Assembly (NCBI RefSeq): GCF_007830295.1
Contig: NZ_VLKC01000002.1
Span: 1,858,513 to 1,922,512, forward strand
Direction of reading: 5' to 3'
DNA: 64,000 nt
DNA from: Sporomusa sp. KB1
GTDB lineage: Bacteria; Bacillota; Negativicutes; Sporomusales; Sporomusaceae
Made by a program: the position numbers and the translations under genes. Positions 14,321-59,499 of the stretch are shown here, in pieces (position 1 is the first letter of the stretch; each line of letters starts with the position of its first letter). Below the pieces are notes generated by a model. That model made no database searches. It was not told the origin of the DNA and saw nothing but the letters and a program-made list of their open reading frames with translations.

Positions 14321-14377
14321 CAATAAAACAAAGTAGGTTAAGCCAACGGGACCGCATAGGTCCCGCAGGCTTAACCT
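14321..14377 (-). terminator. Riboswitch-controlled terminator before the CDF exporter
   Basis: A perfect 10-bp stem (14368-14377 with 14335-14344) encloses a second 6-bp hairpin, GGGACC with GGUCCC. On the minus strand it is followed by a U-rich tail that stops just before the ribosome binding site. Its 5' half uses bases of the aptamer's P4 and P1, so folding of the aptamer and of the terminator exclude each other. Confidence 0.85.
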
Positions 14378-14430
14378 GCTGCTTAACTTGCCCGGCTACG
14401 TCGGCAATAGCCGACCGCCTGTTCCTATAC
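14354..14430 (-). promoter_or_regulatory. NiCo (czcD-type) riboswitch aptamer
   Basis: The leader folds as a four-way junction. P1 is GUAUAGG (14430-14424) with CCUAUGC (14360-14354). Then come AACAGGC, a P2 hairpin GUCGGC/GCCGAC, the conserved G-U-AGCCGGGC segment, a short P3, P4 CAGG/CCUG and CGGGA before the P1 closing strand. These strings match the NiCo riboswitch pattern as I recall it from the crystallised RNA (AGGC, P2, GCAGCCGGGC, P4, GGGAC). The aptamer precedes a CDF exporter, its known target class. Binding would block the terminator and switch the gene on. Confidence 0.85.
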
Positions 14431-14487
14431 TTATTATATTAGCACAGCAAAAGAAATGTGTAAAATTTTCACAGCTTTTCCATTCAC

Positions 14488-20149: not shown

Positions 20150-22459
20150 CTATCTGTAAAAAAGGGTAGGCTCGGCATTAGTTTCCATATTCCAGACACC
20201 GCAAGGACAGATACCGGCACAAATGCCGCAACCGATACATTTATCAGGATCTGAAGTATACTCGACACCATTCTCACCCAAAGTACGAGTAATAGCATTC
20301 TCCGGACAGGATTTGAGACACATATGGCAATCACGACATGTACCACAACTGATACAGCGGCTATAGTCGCTATTTGCCTCCGGGACATCGCAGCTATGGC
20401 ATTTTTTAAAGTAGGCTGTGCTTATCCTGCTTGCCGGAATTTTTGCTTTCTCTACCGGAGTAAAATCGCTCTGGTTTAAATAAGCATTAGCAGCAAGCGC
20501 GGCCTGACGTCCAGCACCAATAGCATCAACCAACCTGCCTGGACGGATAGTGTCACCAGCAGTAAAGATACCAGTAGCAACACTATTGTCACTGGCTGGT
20601 TTTAAGCAACCACGTTCAAGCGCAATCCCTTCAGGTATAAAACTGAGGTCAGGCGTTTCACCAATGGCAATTATTACCGTGTCGCCTTTAATCAACTGCC
20701 CCTCTTGGGTAATAATGCCCTGTTCTGTGACCTCTTTAGTAAATACCGGCCAAAGGATTTCGGCCCCCAATGCCTTAACATGGGCAATCTCTTGTTCAAA
20801 AGCTGCCGGACGCTGAACATCAATGCAGGTAACCTGCTCTGCCCCAAGGCCATAAGCACCTACTGCTACATCCATTCCTGAATTGCCGCAGCCGATAACA
20901 ATAACTCGTTTACCGATAGCCGGCTTTTGGCCTTGATTGATAGCCTTGAGAAAATCAAGACCTTCAACAATTCGCTCATGTCCCGGCCAGGGGATGACTT
21001 TGGTAACATGAGCACCGGTAGCAATTACAACTGCATCATGACTGTCTTTTATTGTGGCAAATTTTGCTTTATCAACGCTAACTCCTGTTTTGAAAGCAAC
21101 ACCCATCTCAGCGATCCGGGAAATTTCCCGGCTTAGCGTTTGTTGCGGCAGACGGGAACGGGGGATAACCTGTTCCATTTTACCGCCCATTTTTTCATCA
21201 GCTTCAAACACGGTTACCTCATGTCCCAGACGAGCTAACTGCCAAGCAGCGGTTAAGCCGGCAGCACCACCGCCGATAATAGCCACATGCTTGCCGGTTT
21301 TGGCTCCGGCTTTAGGCAGCTCAGCTTGACCGGAATATTGACCCAATTTACCAATTTGAGCTGAAATATCCACTGTTTTACGAGTGCAATCATCCATACA
21401 CAGGTTGGGACAAACCGCGCCGCACACCGAGCCTGGAAAAGGTGTGTATTCAAGCACCAGCCTGTAGGCTTCATCAATCTTACCATCTCTCAGCAGGTTA
21501 AAGCGCTGCTGTGACGGGATAGAGGCAGTACAATTGAATTCGCAAGGTGCACTGTATTTTCCGTTTTCCCATACAGGTACACGCCGACGGTATTTGCCAG
21601 TGGTAATAGCACCAATTACTGCAAAGTCATCCTCACATACATCACCAAAAATACTGCCAGGCACCCACTTCTCCGTACGGAAGTCACGTATATTAGTATT
21701 AGCTTTTTTGGGCCGTTCTTCATAGGAAAGCGGTACTACCTTCTGCCACTGACTCCAATCAGTCAATTCATTCCGTAGCTCTGAGCGACCAACAGCGCCC
21801 AGAAAGTCCTCCATTTTGCCATCAAGATACGCAATATCCTCCGCATCCAGCGTTAGTATCTTGGTATCCTTAGCCGATATACCGCCGGCAGCACCCCGGA
21901 AATAGACAATGCCACCAACCATACCGGTACAAGCACGATCACCTAATACGGATTCAAATTGCTCACTATCATAGCCGCATACTACTGCAGTACCGCCACC
22001 CATAAATTCAAAGGCAAAACTGCCGACATTTTTTAATACCCAGAATTCTGGCGCTTCATAGTATGGGTCATGTTTCATCAGTGATCCGGAACGGGTTCCT
22101 GCCCGACCACCTACATAGATCGTGCCTGCAGCCGCACAATGAGCAGTTGTATCACCGCCATCACCTTTTATTACAATGCGGCCACCGGCATTAAGCCAGC
22201 CAACATCAGCGGAAACCGAACCTTCAACAATAATTTCTGTTCCGGGCAAGCACATGGAACCCACACGCTGACCGGCATTTTTTATATAAAATTTTAAAGG
22301 CTTTCCTTCCGGATGCCAAAGCGGACCACCAATATCATGCTGACCTGCTGCTTCAATGTGAAACTCGGTTTCTCCTTGTGCCAACGCCGCATTGATACGC
22401 TCTAAGAGGTCCTGCGTTGACATCCGATTATTACCGTCGATAGTATTTATTTTAAACAT
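20150..22459 (-). CDS. Fused GXGXG + glutamate synthase small-subunit-like flavoprotein with [4Fe-4S] ferredoxin domain
   Basis: The 769 residues combine three parts. Residues 1-270 form a GXGXG beta-helix like the C-terminus of the GltB large subunit (repeated VxGSVSADVGWLNAGGRIVIKGDGGDT-type turns). Residues 285-690 are GltD-like, with a Cys cluster (CxxxCPNLCxxxC), FAD GGGAAGLTAAWQLA and an NAD(P) site VIGCGNSGMDVA. Residues 690-769 hold a Cys-rich region and two [4Fe-4S] motifs (CxxCxxCxxxCP, CIGCGICAGICPCG). It would pass electrons to the glutamate-forming FMN subunit encoded next to it. It is the last gene of the operon, 12 bases after its partner. Confidence 0.88.
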   Translation of the reverse strand: MFKINTIDGNNRMSTQDLLERINAALAQGETEFHIEAAGQHDIGGPLWHPEGKPLKFYIKNAGQRVGSMCLPGTEIIVEGSVSADVGWLNAGGRIVIKGDGGDTTAHCAAAGTIYVGGRAGTRSGSLMKHDPYYEAPEFWVLKNVGSFAFEFMGGGTAVVCGYDSEQFESVLGDRACTGMVGGIVYFRGAAGGISAKDTKILTLDAEDIAYLDGKMEDFLGAVGRSELRNELTDWSQWQKVVPLSYEERPKKANTNIRDFRTEKWVPGSIFGDVCEDDFAVIGAITTGKYRRRVPVWENGKYSAPCEFNCTASIPSQQRFNLLRDGKIDEAYRLVLEYTPFPGSVCGAVCPNLCMDDCTRKTVDISAQIGKLGQYSGQAELPKAGAKTGKHVAIIGGGAAGLTAAWQLARLGHEVTVFEADEKMGGKMEQVIPRSRLPQQTLSREISRIAEMGVAFKTGVSVDKAKFATIKDSHDAVVIATGAHVTKVIPWPGHERIVEGLDFLKAINQGQKPAIGKRVIVIGCGNSGMDVAVGAYGLGAEQVTCIDVQRPAAFEQEIAHVKALGAEILWPVFTKEVTEQGIITQEGQLIKGDTVIIAIGETPDLSFIPEGIALERGCLKPASDNSVATGIFTAGDTIRPGRLVDAIGAGRQAALAANAYLNQSDFTPVEKAKIPASRISTAYFKKCHSCDVPEANSDYSRCISCGTCRDCHMCLKSCPENAITRTLGENGVEYTSDPDKCIGCGICAGICPCGVWNMETNAEPTLFYR

Positions 22460-22471
22460 GCGCAGTTCCCC

Positions 22472-24109
22472 CTAGCATACATATTGAATGCCTAATTTAT
22501 CGGCAATGGCTTTATCTGTAGTTACCAACGCGTCAGAACGGCCAACCGGTAATGAGCTGTTACCAACCGGTGCCATCAGTTTTTTGAGTTCGCTGTTCAA
22601 GGCTAACATATATTCGACAATATTCTGGGCCGCTTTATCAATATCAAGGCGCTTAACCAGCCGCGGGTTTTGCGTACAAATTCCCGCCGGGCAGTTGCCG
22701 GTATTGCAGGCGTTACAGCGTCCATGCTCATTACCGACACAGCCGCATAATTGAATTAGTAGTTTACCTAAAAATACGCCGTTAGCACCCAAACAAATGA
22801 GTTTGAAGGCATCGGCAGCTGCATTGCCGGTTAAACCGACACCACCACCGGCCCATAGAGGAATCTGACCCTGTCGTCCCTGTTTAACAGCGGCCAGGTA
22901 ACACTCCCGAATTTTTGCTACAATCGGGTGACCGGTATGATCCAGTGATACTTCATTAGCTGCGCCGGTACCGCCTTGAATACCATCAATAAAGAATCCG
23001 CCACAGATTTTGTATGGATCACGTATTAGGTTATTGTATACTGAAACCGAAGTTGCCGAAGCCGCACATTTAATGGCAACAGGCACCCGGAATTTGAAAG
23101 CTGCGTTCATAGACATAAACATCTTTTGTACCGACTCTTCAATAGAGTACAAACCCTGATGATTAGGCGGTGATAAAAGGTCGGCCTTAGGTACACCCCG
23201 GATGGCCTGAACGGGTTTAGAAACTTTTGCCGCTGGCAGGAGACCACCATCGCCGGGTTTAGCTCCCTGCCCGATTTTAATCAAAATACCGGCCGGATCC
23301 ACTTTCATGTGAGGCATGGCCTGAATGATCCGGTTCCAGCCAAAGTGCCCTGAGGCAATCTGCAGAATCATATATTTTAGATGTTCTGACTGCATTAGCT
23401 TAATCGGCATACCACCTTCGCCAGAACACATTCTCACAGGCATATTATGTTTTTCATTCAGGTAAGCTGTCGCCAAAGCAACCGCTTCCCAAGCCCTGGT
23501 TGATAACGCCCCGATGGACATATCACTAAAGATTACCGGATAGATCCAGTTTACCGGCGGTGTTTTCCCTGACAGCTTAAGTTCCTGCCCATCAGAGGTA
23601 AGCGGCAGCTCATTCGGCAGAAGTACCCGCCCAAAGGGTGCTAAGATATCAAAGGTATGCCGTTCTGAATCTAACGCAGGGTCAGTCATCTGCGAAATAC
23701 GCCCAACAACAATTTTATCCAATGTCCGTTCGCTACCAAAAATACTATTACGGCCACCACGCTTAACTGGTGCACCACCACTGCGATTCAGACAATTGAT
23801 CCGAGAGTCAAGGTTGCGGGCAGGCTTAATGGCATTATTGGGACAGACCTTCTCACACATACCGCAGCCAACACAGGCGTTAGCTACTACTGCTCTCTGT
23901 CTAATAACAGGCACTGCCATGTGACGTTGACTGGGTTCAGGCTGGTGTCCTGTGGAAACAGTAACTGACCGGCGTTCCATGGCCGCTTCAATAGCATTAA
24001 AGCTGCAAGCAGCAACACAACTGCCGCACATGGTACAGCGCTCGTGCGTATATTGTATTTTCCACGGCAAATCATTAACGCTAACATCTTGTATGTTTAT
24101 TGCTTCCAT
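22472..24109 (-). CDS. Glutamate synthase FMN-domain protein with N-terminal ferredoxin domain
   Basis: This 545-residue protein carries the FMN-binding synthase domain of GltB (about 170-500: GEGGMPIKLMQSEHLKYMILQIASGHFGW, then KIGQGAKPGDGGLLPAAKV, and GGFFIDGIQGGTGAANEVS). It is preceded by two [4Fe-4S] clusters (CTMCGSCVAAC, CVGCGMCEKVCPNNA). It resembles archaeal/clostridial split glutamate synthases, which make glutamate from 2-oxoglutarate and ammonia supplied by the amidotransferase. Additional Cys (CGCVGNEHGRCNACNTGNCPAGIC) match the GltB Fe-S region. The start overlaps the upstream amidotransferase gene by 13 bases. Confidence 0.88.
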   Translation of the reverse strand: MEAINIQDVSVNDLPWKIQYTHERCTMCGSCVAACSFNAIEAAMERRSVTVSTGHQPEPSQRHMAVPVIRQRAVVANACVGCGMCEKVCPNNAIKPARNLDSRINCLNRSGGAPVKRGGRNSIFGSERTLDKIVVGRISQMTDPALDSERHTFDILAPFGRVLLPNELPLTSDGQELKLSGKTPPVNWIYPVIFSDMSIGALSTRAWEAVALATAYLNEKHNMPVRMCSGEGGMPIKLMQSEHLKYMILQIASGHFGWNRIIQAMPHMKVDPAGILIKIGQGAKPGDGGLLPAAKVSKPVQAIRGVPKADLLSPPNHQGLYSIEESVQKMFMSMNAAFKFRVPVAIKCAASATSVSVYNNLIRDPYKICGGFFIDGIQGGTGAANEVSLDHTGHPIVAKIRECYLAAVKQGRQGQIPLWAGGGVGLTGNAAADAFKLICLGANGVFLGKLLIQLCGCVGNEHGRCNACNTGNCPAGICTQNPRLVKRLDIDKAAQNIVEYMLALNSELKKLMAPVGNSSLPVGRSDALVTTDKAIADKLGIQYVC

Positions 24110-25203
24110 CGTTCTACCTCCAGCTCTGGAGTAATAACCACAACTTCACGTTCATTTGGATAAATATCAAGTTCCTGATTGCGATTGGGTAATATCTGAT
24201 TAAGACCGCAAACCTCAGACGAGATGGCAATGGTAGTACCATCTCCACCTACAACCACTGGTCGCAACTTTTTGGAATCACAGCAGGTCATCATGCGACC
24301 ATTTGGCAGCATTGCAATAATAGTGTTTGGCCCGTTTATCTCTAAATGCCCCATTGATTGACGAATAGCTATCAATTCGCGCTGGTCGGCGCGTTGAACA
24401 ATCTCATCAAACGGCAATGGAGTAATAACATGCTTGTAATATTTTATCGGCCACTTGAGCACATTAAGAACATAGTGTAACGTATAAAGAAAGTTTTGGG
24501 AATCAGATTCAAAGCCAATATAACCGCGATGCAGCGATTTTTGATATTCTTTGTTTTTGGTATAAAAAGTGTTTTCCCCATTAGCACATAGCGTATAGCC
24601 TTGCAAGAAGAAGGGATGGGCGGCATAGCGTACAATATCATAGTTAGTATTTTGCCGACACTGGACAACGACGTTTTTGGCCATCAAATCTCCATTATTA
24701 TCCCAAAGCTTAAAATAGACGGCAATATCGCGAGGATCGCCAATCTCTTTCAAAGTTAATATATCCGGCCAAAATGAATATACATAACCTTGGTCTTCGG
24801 CCTCTAATAGCGTCCTGAGCGCTAAACGGGTATCTAATAATAGTTCCTCTTTGGCCTCCTGCGTAGCTGTACGATAATACTCCGGATAATCGTAGGCCCG
24901 GAAAATATAATAGGGCATGGCCTTAATATCAAGGCCCGGTTGGCGAACCCCCCGCGGAATCCACTCGTGAACAGGGACAAAGTTATTTGTTTCCATAAAA
25001 TGCTCTACCATGGTTGCACCTTTTTGTGTGCAGGCTAATGACAATAACGGCTTATCCTTGCAATTGGCAAAAACCCCATCCAAATCTTGCATAACCATGG
25101 CAAATCCTGAGTTGTCATGTCCCTCTTGCTGGGGCAACATTAAATGCAACGCCAGTGACGGATGAAATGCTATTTTGCTCTTTATAGCTCCGATTCTACA
25201 CAT
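24097..25203 (-). CDS. Class II glutamine amidotransferase subunit of split glutamate synthase
   Basis: The 368-residue protein starts Met-Cys (MCRIGAIKSK), so Cys2 becomes the N-terminal nucleophile after Met removal, as in Ntn amidotransferases. Further family features are GHDNSGFAMVMQD and NGENTFYTKNKEYQ. It corresponds to the N-terminal domain of GltB and would release ammonia from glutamine for the FMN subunit. It is the first gene of the three-gene operon and is preceded by a 430-base structured leader. Confidence 0.88.
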   Translation of the reverse strand: MCRIGAIKSKIAFHPSLALHLMLPQQEGHDNSGFAMVMQDLDGVFANCKDKPLLSLACTQKGATMVEHFMETNNFVPVHEWIPRGVRQPGLDIKAMPYYIFRAYDYPEYYRTATQEAKEELLLDTRLALRTLLEAEDQGYVYSFWPDILTLKEIGDPRDIAVYFKLWDNNGDLMAKNVVVQCRQNTNYDIVRYAAHPFFLQGYTLCANGENTFYTKNKEYQKSLHRGYIGFESDSQNFLYTLHYVLNVLKWPIKYYKHVITPLPFDEIVQRADQRELIAIRQSMGHLEINGPNTIIAMLPNGRMMTCCDSKKLRPVVVGGDGTTIAISSEVCGLNQILPNRNQELDIYPNEREVVVITPELEVERWKQ

Positions 25204-25249
25204 CCTACTCTCCCATCCTCTCCAATAATTGCTCAGAACTACTTTCTAA

Positions 25250-25297
25250 GTAAAGAAAACACGGCTTGCTTCGAACCCTAGGCGAATACACAAGCCG
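25250..25297 (-). terminator. Second terminator in the glutamate synthase leader
   Basis: A 7-bp stem (25291-25297 with 25262-25268) encloses an inner UUCG/CGAA pairing, followed on the minus strand by UGUUUUCUUU. It stands 47 bases before the first gene. The loop contains CCUAGGGUUCGA, which resembles the 5' conserved string of the upstream riboswitch. Confidence 0.65.
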
Positions 25298-25440
25298 CTG
25301 TTTCCCTTATCCTGTTTTTTATAAAGTTACGCTTTTTGTTGAGATAAGATAAGACTTGGCTTGTACCAAGTCCTTTCCTTTAGGACGCTGGCAGAAGCCT
25401 TAATCGTTCTATCCAGGGAAAGTTAACCTTTCCAGCTGGA
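25298..25440 (-). promoter_or_regulatory. Unassigned structured segment between two leader terminators
   Basis: After the first terminator the leader shows a bulged 12-bp hairpin (25411-25441) and a 7-bp hairpin (25353-25372). A GUCC/GGAC pair lies between them, and a U-rich, AUCUUAUCU-type tail follows. This may be a second sensing module controlling the second terminator. I do not recognise it as a T-box, glnA-type or SAM element. Confidence 0.4.
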
Positions 25441-25492
25441 TAAAAAAAGACCTGGCGAAGAACCCCTACCATTGGGACCTTCCGCCGGGTCT
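25441..25492 (-). terminator. Riboswitch-overlapping terminator in the glutamate synthase leader
   Basis: A long stem of about 18 pairs (25474-25492 with 25448-25466, with G-U pairs) is followed on the minus strand by seven U. Its 5' strand contains the conserved 3' end of the ykkC aptamer (AGACCCGGCGGAAGG), so ligand binding should prevent termination. Confidence 0.88.
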
Positions 25493-25580
25493 TTTATTCC
25501 CACGGTGTAGTGCTGTGCCACGCTGCACTTGTGTCGCTTGGTCCAGCCGCATTGCTGCGCGGAACCCTAGACACGCTCCC
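25474..25580 (-). promoter_or_regulatory. ykkC-family riboswitch, subtype 2 (ppGpp or PRPP type)
   Basis: Conserved ykkC strings occur in order on the minus strand: CUAGGGUUCCGCG (25570-25558), a CGCA/UGCG P2 hairpin, GGACCAAGCGACACA, an AGUGC/GCACU hairpin, UACACCGUGGGAAUAAAAGACCCGG-type 3' core (shown in part) and a closing GGGA/UCCC. GGACCAAGCG and ACACCGUGGG match the PRPP/ppGpp subtypes more closely than the guanidine subtype. ppGpp riboswitches are known upstream of glutamate synthase and branched-chain amino acid genes, which favours ppGpp here. The A at 25498 before AUAAAAG also fits. Confidence 0.8.
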
Positions 25581-25641
25581 TCAAAAGAACATTTATACTT
25601 TATAAAAACACACTAATGTACACATGCTGCTTTTGAGTCTA

Positions 25642-25670
25642 ATTATAAAAACTTATTAACACATTGTCAA
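25642..25670 (-). promoter_or_regulatory. Consensus sigma-A promoter of the glutamate synthase leader
   Basis: TTGACA (25665-25670) and TATAAT (25642-25647) on the minus strand are 17 bases apart. Transcription would start near 25634, about 55 bases before the riboswitch. The promoter begins 20 bases after the selB stop. Confidence 0.88.
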
Positions 25671-59393: not shown

Positions 59394-59414
59394 ATTACAG
59401 TATCCAAAAAACGT

Positions 59415-59499
59415 CATATTTTGGCAAACTTATCGAAAGGTAAGGACGCAAAGCTATGGATCTAAGGGTTTTAACCTATGATTGCCAGGTTGCCATCGC
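59415..59499 (+). promoter_or_regulatory. Cyclic-di-GMP-I (GEMM-I) riboswitch aptamer
   Basis: The region contains GGCAAAC near 59423, a short stem with GAAA loop (UAUCGAAAGGUA), the invariant GGACGCAAAGC at 59443-59453, and the second arm ending GAUUGCCAGGUUGCC (to about 59495). These are the class I c-di-GMP riboswitch motifs in correct order and spacing. It precedes a gene with GGDEF and EAL domains, a classical target. Confidence 0.92.

Follow-up and report, generated by a model that had tools for sequence, protein, structure and literature searches.

The window analysed here is a stretch of 64,000 nucleotides from Sporomusa sp. KB1, and its minus strand carries, in this order, a promoter, an aptamer of the ykkC type, a terminator and three glutamate synthase genes. 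The promoter, TTGACA-17-TATAAT at 25642..25670, matches at 12 of 12 positions and is as perfect as the initial annotation had described it; at a threshold of 9 of 12, one site was found as against 0.7 (sd 0.8) expected in shuffled sequences. The aptamer occupies 25474..25580 and contains helices P0, P1, P2 and P3. By folding prediction, an intrinsic terminator lies at 25442..25495, its 5' arm being the 3' core of the aptamer and its U-run falling at 25448-25442. Gene 1 (24097..25203, 368 aa) is the presumed amidotransferase domain of the enzyme, gene 2 (22472..24109, 545 aa) joins Fer4 domains to Glu_synthase (PF01645, 216.6 bits), and gene 3 (20150..22459, 769 aa) combines GXGXG, Fer4_20, Pyr_redox_2 and Fer4 by Pfam. 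Because GXGXG is fused to the reductase, "rearranged", the earlier term for this glutamate synthase, is fair.

The protein of gene 1 has counterparts in Sporomusa ovata DSM 2662 (99%), S. acidovorans (96%) and S. malonica (93%), and gave no match to Pfam or NCBIfam. Its AlphaFold2 model had a mean pLDDT of 41.2, too poor for use, and a profile search of the PDB returned three matches with E values of 0.93 or worse, none significant, of which two, at E 1.6, were glutamine PRPP amidotransferase. A Met-Cys start is invariant in 11 of 11 relatives, as an amidotransferase with an N-terminal Cys would need. GATase_2 (PF00310) had no match in the genome; the same domain was matched in 14 of 14 control genomes, 12 of them over the cut-off. 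In a genome with no PF00310 match, gene 1 presumably supplies the amidotransferase of glutamate synthase.

The four conserved ykkC strings that had been reported in order were all found on the minus strand, as CTAGGGTTCC (25570-25561), GGACCAAGCG (25544-25535), ACACCGTGGG (25508-25499) and ATAAAAGACCCGG (25497-25485). In a permissive Rfam scan of a 531-base stretch, RF00442 (Guanidine-I) was by far the top match (25480-25581, minus, 48.3 bits, E 1.3e-7; E 3.4e-7 with the whole genome searched), and no other ykkC-type family was reported at E values up to 10. The default Rfam scan does not list the aptamer because its 48.3 bits fall short of the family's gathering score (63 bits). A second CCTAGGGTTCG, at 25282-25272, was considered as an extra ykkC copy and rejected; it sits in a hairpin that resembles a repeat and has no ykkC match. 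Rfam also places a c-di-GMP-I riboswitch at 59413-59497 (plus, 78 bits) and a NiCo riboswitch at 14356-14436 (minus, 49.1 bits) of the window.

Since RF00442 was the sole ykkC-type family reported, we built subtype models of our own. RF00442 was searched against 120 genomes including that of strain KB1, and 58 had a match. One hundred loci among the matches listed (47.7 to 67.2 bits, 5 over the cut-off) were grouped with the five of KB1 by downstream gene. These 105 ykkC loci comprised 32 gltS leaders (window included), 26 before azgA-type permease-purE-purC, 20 ilv, 5 leuA, 4 liv, 4 paaK, three small groups of 2 each and 8 others; the names purE, purC, ilv, leuA, liv and TRAP are our reading of protein sequences, Pfam and NCBIfam having been applied to the KB1 proteins only. 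Model R1 was built from 31 ilv/leu/liv/TRAP leaders (ppGpp context) and R2 from 26 azgA-purE-purC leaders (PRPP context), neither with any gltS sequence, and both were scored on the window plus 99 loci and on 80 named loci. The context labels are independently backed by tandem partners. A guanine aptamer lies ahead of the ykkC aptamer in all 20 purine loci scanned (25 fetched) and in one KB1 locus, L003; of the 20 ilv/leu/liv loci scanned, 10 have a T-box above threshold, as does another KB1 locus, L004. Tandems of both kinds are in print (PMC5912903; PMC9481103). Neither a T-box above threshold nor a guanine aptamer was found by Rfam in the 20 gltS loci scanned or in the window.

The window aptamer scored 80.9 bits with R1 and 60.3 with R2, a difference of 20.6 bits that is rough because the two models differ in length (122 vs 138 positions). 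Its match to the model of ppGpp-context relatives, at E 7.7e-22 by a rough calibration, is not chance. All 32 gltS leaders, the window among them, score higher with R1, down to a near-tie in L108 (82.7 vs 82.2 bits). Guanidine-I loci reach at most 46.4 bits with R1. Of four further leaders used to train neither model, L100 and L101 strongly favour R1 and L153 strongly favours R2; L109 favours R2 by a smaller margin (79.6 vs 65.9).

Covariation supports the P0 helix. The 5' strand of P0, GGGA (25577..25580), pairs with UCCC at 25474-25477, and in the gltS alignment this 4-bp helix, GGGA/UCCC or AGGA/UCCU, forms in all 31 distinct rows (100% pairing); one pair has 12 two-sided changes and the remaining three are invariant. 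P1 and P2 likewise covary; a P1b helix as first drawn was only 0-39% paired and was abandoned. P3 (25487..25501), drawn from the sequence and the gltS alignment, consists of GGG at 25501-25499, the loop AAUAAAAGA and CCC at 25489-25487. The ykkC core with its P1-P3 scaffold and the P0 helix are thus both present, as in a ppGpp riboswitch; guanidine aptamers have no P0, the helix formed by the aptamer ends (PMC6031431). By our own alignment, C25536 occupies the place of T. mathranii residue 49, which is A in guanidine-I and a pyrimidine in PRPP and ppGpp aptamers (PMC6031431), so that the window sides with the latter two. CACC at 25504..25507 corresponds to residues 75-78, which puts C25507 at position 75, the C that pairs with the ppGpp guanine in the crystal structure of the G96A variant (PMC6031431).

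Position 96 is G in >97% of PRPP aptamers; ppGpp aptamers lack the base or have A, C or U in its place and, according to PMC6031431, there citing Sherlock 2018a, never G. An engineered change of G96 to A moved specificity ~40,000-fold (PMC6031431); the initial annotation had referred to a single G-to-A change that separates ppGpp from PRPP binding. The primers for that change, CCCGGGAGG to CCCGAGAGG, place position 96 at the second base after the CCC of the P3 3' strand. In the window, the GG that follows CCC (25485..25486) is read as positions 95 and 97 and the sequence reads CCC-G-GCGGAA, with position 96 absent; CCCGG could in principle also be read with 95-96 present and 97 missing. The earlier argument had instead rested on an A at 25498. 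That base is real, but it opens the P3 loop and is not position 96, and the argument fails for that reason; at the equivalent loop position the 32 gltS leaders have U in 26, G in 4, C in 1 and A in the window only. Position 96 is G in 26/26 purine leaders, absent in 31/31 ilv/leu/liv/TRAP leaders, and in gltS leaders absent in 28/32 (window included) and G in 4/32. Among 21 named gltS matches it is absent in 18, A in L179 and L182, and G in L183. With position 96 absent and R1 ahead of R2, the window has the features of the ppGpp-type aptamer that had been proposed for it.

An aptamer that senses PRPP (subtype 2b) would tie glutamate synthesis to the supply of a purine precursor, and we consider it improbable here. 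The scaffold and the P0-bearing architecture are common to both subtypes, C at 49 and CACC at 75-78 are compatible with both, and the window still scores 60.3 bits with R2; what separates it from the purine-context aptamers is the missing base at 96, G in all 26 of those, together with the 20.6 bits by which R1 exceeds R2 and the lack of a guanine aptamer in the 20 gltS loci scanned and the window, whereas the PRPP-type L003 of the same genome adjoins a guanine aptamer and purine genes. A further point for PRPP comes from orthologous gltS leaders that do have G96, namely L093, L103, L108, L119 and L183. R1 scores above R2 in L093, L103 and L119, and R2 above R1 in L183 (71.0 vs 58.7 bits). L183 and the A96-bearing L179 (Anaerospora hongkongensis) are sisters in a tree of GltB proteins (100/99). 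The G96 leaders contradict the ppGpp rule as given in PMC6031431; either they have switched to PRPP sensing, or the rule is less strict. It is possible, if doubtful, that the gltS riboswitch varies in ligand specificity from one orthologous leader to the next, in which case the G96 leaders would be natural ppGpp-to-PRPP switches of one operon, or ppGpp aptamers that tolerate G.

For the window itself, the observed aptamer, its covarying P0, the subtype affinity, the predicted terminator overlap and the gene order are the basis on which we infer ligand identity, switch direction and cellular effect. The glutamate synthase operon is, with a probability of roughly 0.88, controlled by a putative ykkC subtype-2a (p)ppGpp riboswitch through transcription antitermination.

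The predicted terminator bears on how such a switch may operate. Its hairpin, which ends in TCTTTTTTTA, folds at -25.4 kcal/mol, compared with -12.9 (sd 3.1) in 500 mononucleotide shuffles, none of which was as low; the earlier proposal that the aptamer 3' core forms part of a terminator is borne out by this predicted fold. In predicted folds of the gltS leaders, a downstream hairpin sequesters most of the 3' core in 28 of 32 by our first rule, which asks for 7 or more of the 11-12 core bases in the hairpin, and in the other four at some longer folding window; in L157 sequestration covers 8/11 bases at 130 nt and less (4/11) at 150 nt. Since no T-run was found by our rule in 8 of the 32, what the folds show for those eight is the hairpin, not a complete terminator. 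A terminator that shares the 3' core is the anatomy of a ppGpp ON-switch, here as predicted by folding. In a described ppGpp switch, bound ligand makes the outer helix of the aptamer more stable, at the expense of the terminator (PMC10687018); we take that helix, named P1 there, as equal to our P0. From this likeness in class and anatomy we infer ON logic, which fits the window. Without ligand, the aptamer 3' core (AAAAGACCC.GGCG) would pair downstream to form the terminator, and transcription would end before the genes. With ppGpp bound, P0, P1 and P3 would be held together and the 3' core kept in the aptamer, so that the terminator would be blocked and the glutamate synthase genes made. The genome encodes three proteins with a RelA_SpoT domain, in open frames of 743, 301 and 334 aa.

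Two repeats lie between the terminator and gene 1. A copy of a dispersed, palindromic repeat of ~95 nt directly follows the terminator (25340..25442, BLAST), and part of a second repeat, of lower copy number and with the hairpin GGCTTG...CAAGCC, was matched by genome search at 25248..25329. The ~95-nt repeat has 42 BLAST matches in the genome, partial ones included, the best 20 being 82-100% identical, and no Rfam match at gathering score in the copies scanned (window and others); on these two grounds it was rejected as a second riboswitch. A possible alternative, terminator-like hairpin in it is weakened, by eye, in copies such as L020 and L016. The copies compared were the window, L006-L025 and L248-L266, the alignment row of L028 being off target and devoid of the repeat. 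By simple ORF calling, 20 of 39 copies lie between genes running in the direction of the repeat and 4 between genes both opposite to it; a T-rich 5' border occurs in 35/39, a count that stands without a random-position control. The repeat was matched in 25 of 60 genomes, KB1 included, with head-to-tail arrays in G008, and within the 105 ykkC loci it occurs in 3 gltS, 2 purine and 1 ilv leader (a partial copy). The second repeat has 18 matches at E values up to 1 in the KB1 genome, the window included, most of them short or weak; L245-L247 are other loci that carry it.

These repeats raise the question of whether the aptamer is decayed or disconnected from its genes, as might be suspected from the repeat that the window and its near relatives L081 and L084 carry between terminator and gene, and from the visibly degenerate aptamer of the distant gltS leader L169. 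We regard such decay as very improbable in the window, where the repeats come after the terminator, outside the switch, and where the aptamer has an intact core, conserved across 9 gltS leaders of the same genus, each with a predicted sequestering hairpin. A guanidine-I riboswitch is scarcely credible, for although RF00442 is the sole Rfam match of ykkC type and the window shares CUAGGGUUCCG and the P1-P3 scaffold with that family, it has C in place of A49, C in place of G78 and a P0 that guanidine aptamers lack (PMC6031431), its 48.3 bits fall short of a gathering score that is itself not cleanly subtype-separating because gltS L108 (66.1 bits) and purine L127 (63.1 bits) pass it, and L001 in the same genome has the guanidine residues, scores 84.5 bits and precedes two SMR-type transporters (assigned by eye).

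R1 matched at E values up to 0.01 in 21 of the best 80 named gltB loci (263 found), and the 59 with no match are mostly Selenomonadaceae as labelled, several carrying little upstream sequence. The GltB tree, of 45 proteins, took in five of the named loci that lack an aptamer, and these five Selenomonadaceae rows form one group (100/100). L103 and L119 were left out of the tree because no start codon was recognised, and the label of L178, which came from a regular expression, was dropped for want of a model match. The degenerate leader L169 (2311-2428; 21.1 bits with R1), which counts among the 21 loci with an R1 match, has lost definition in the 5' half of the aptamer and has kept its terminator region.

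The window has much in common with published ppGpp riboswitches (2a): the core, P0, no G96, C75, the terminator overlap and the glutamate synthase context. The gltS members differ in their short, 4-bp P0 and in having no T-box above threshold in the 20 loci scanned. The gene context does not fit the NUDIX or hydrolase genes named for the NDP riboswitch (2c; PMC7266159). Glutamate synthases, branched-chain amino acid genes and natA are placed together in subtype 2a (PMC5912903), and genes of branched-chain amino acid and glutamate synthesis are activated by ppGpp riboswitches (PMC7266159); the initial annotation, too, had placed such riboswitches upstream of glutamate synthase and branched-chain amino acid genes. 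Because class, gene context and tandem partners are in print, the window is a further example and not a new type of switch; no publication on a ykkC riboswitch in Sporomusa was found in the literature searched.

The RF00442 search found five ykkC RNAs in the KB1 genome, that of the window being L002. Besides the guanidine-type L001, L003 lies before a protein of the Xan_ur_permease family and overlaps a guanine aptamer (RF00167, 86.7 bits), the guanine-PRPP tandem known from the literature. L004, upstream of ilvN-ilvC (identified by eye), comes with a T-box at 110 bits, the ppGpp-T-box tandem likewise in print. Downstream of L005 is a protein resembling phenylacetate-CoA ligase (TIGR02155, 601 bits, slightly under the model cut-off of 646). 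Separately, L005 (1490-1607), L112, L128 and L136 have a ppGpp-type aptamer before genes of the phenylacetate-CoA ligase cluster, a gene context for ykkC that was not found in the literature searched, insofar as its text was available; three of the four have A96, the natural form of the engineered G96A.

Orthologous gltS leaders with A96 and G96 provide a natural test of the single-base rule that was shown with an engineered change (PMC6031431). A single genome with predicted guanidine, PRPP and ppGpp forms of one fold likewise allows a test of how ligands are divided among them. If the ligand assignment holds, glutamate synthesis in this acetogen would be placed under the stringent alarmone through RNA.
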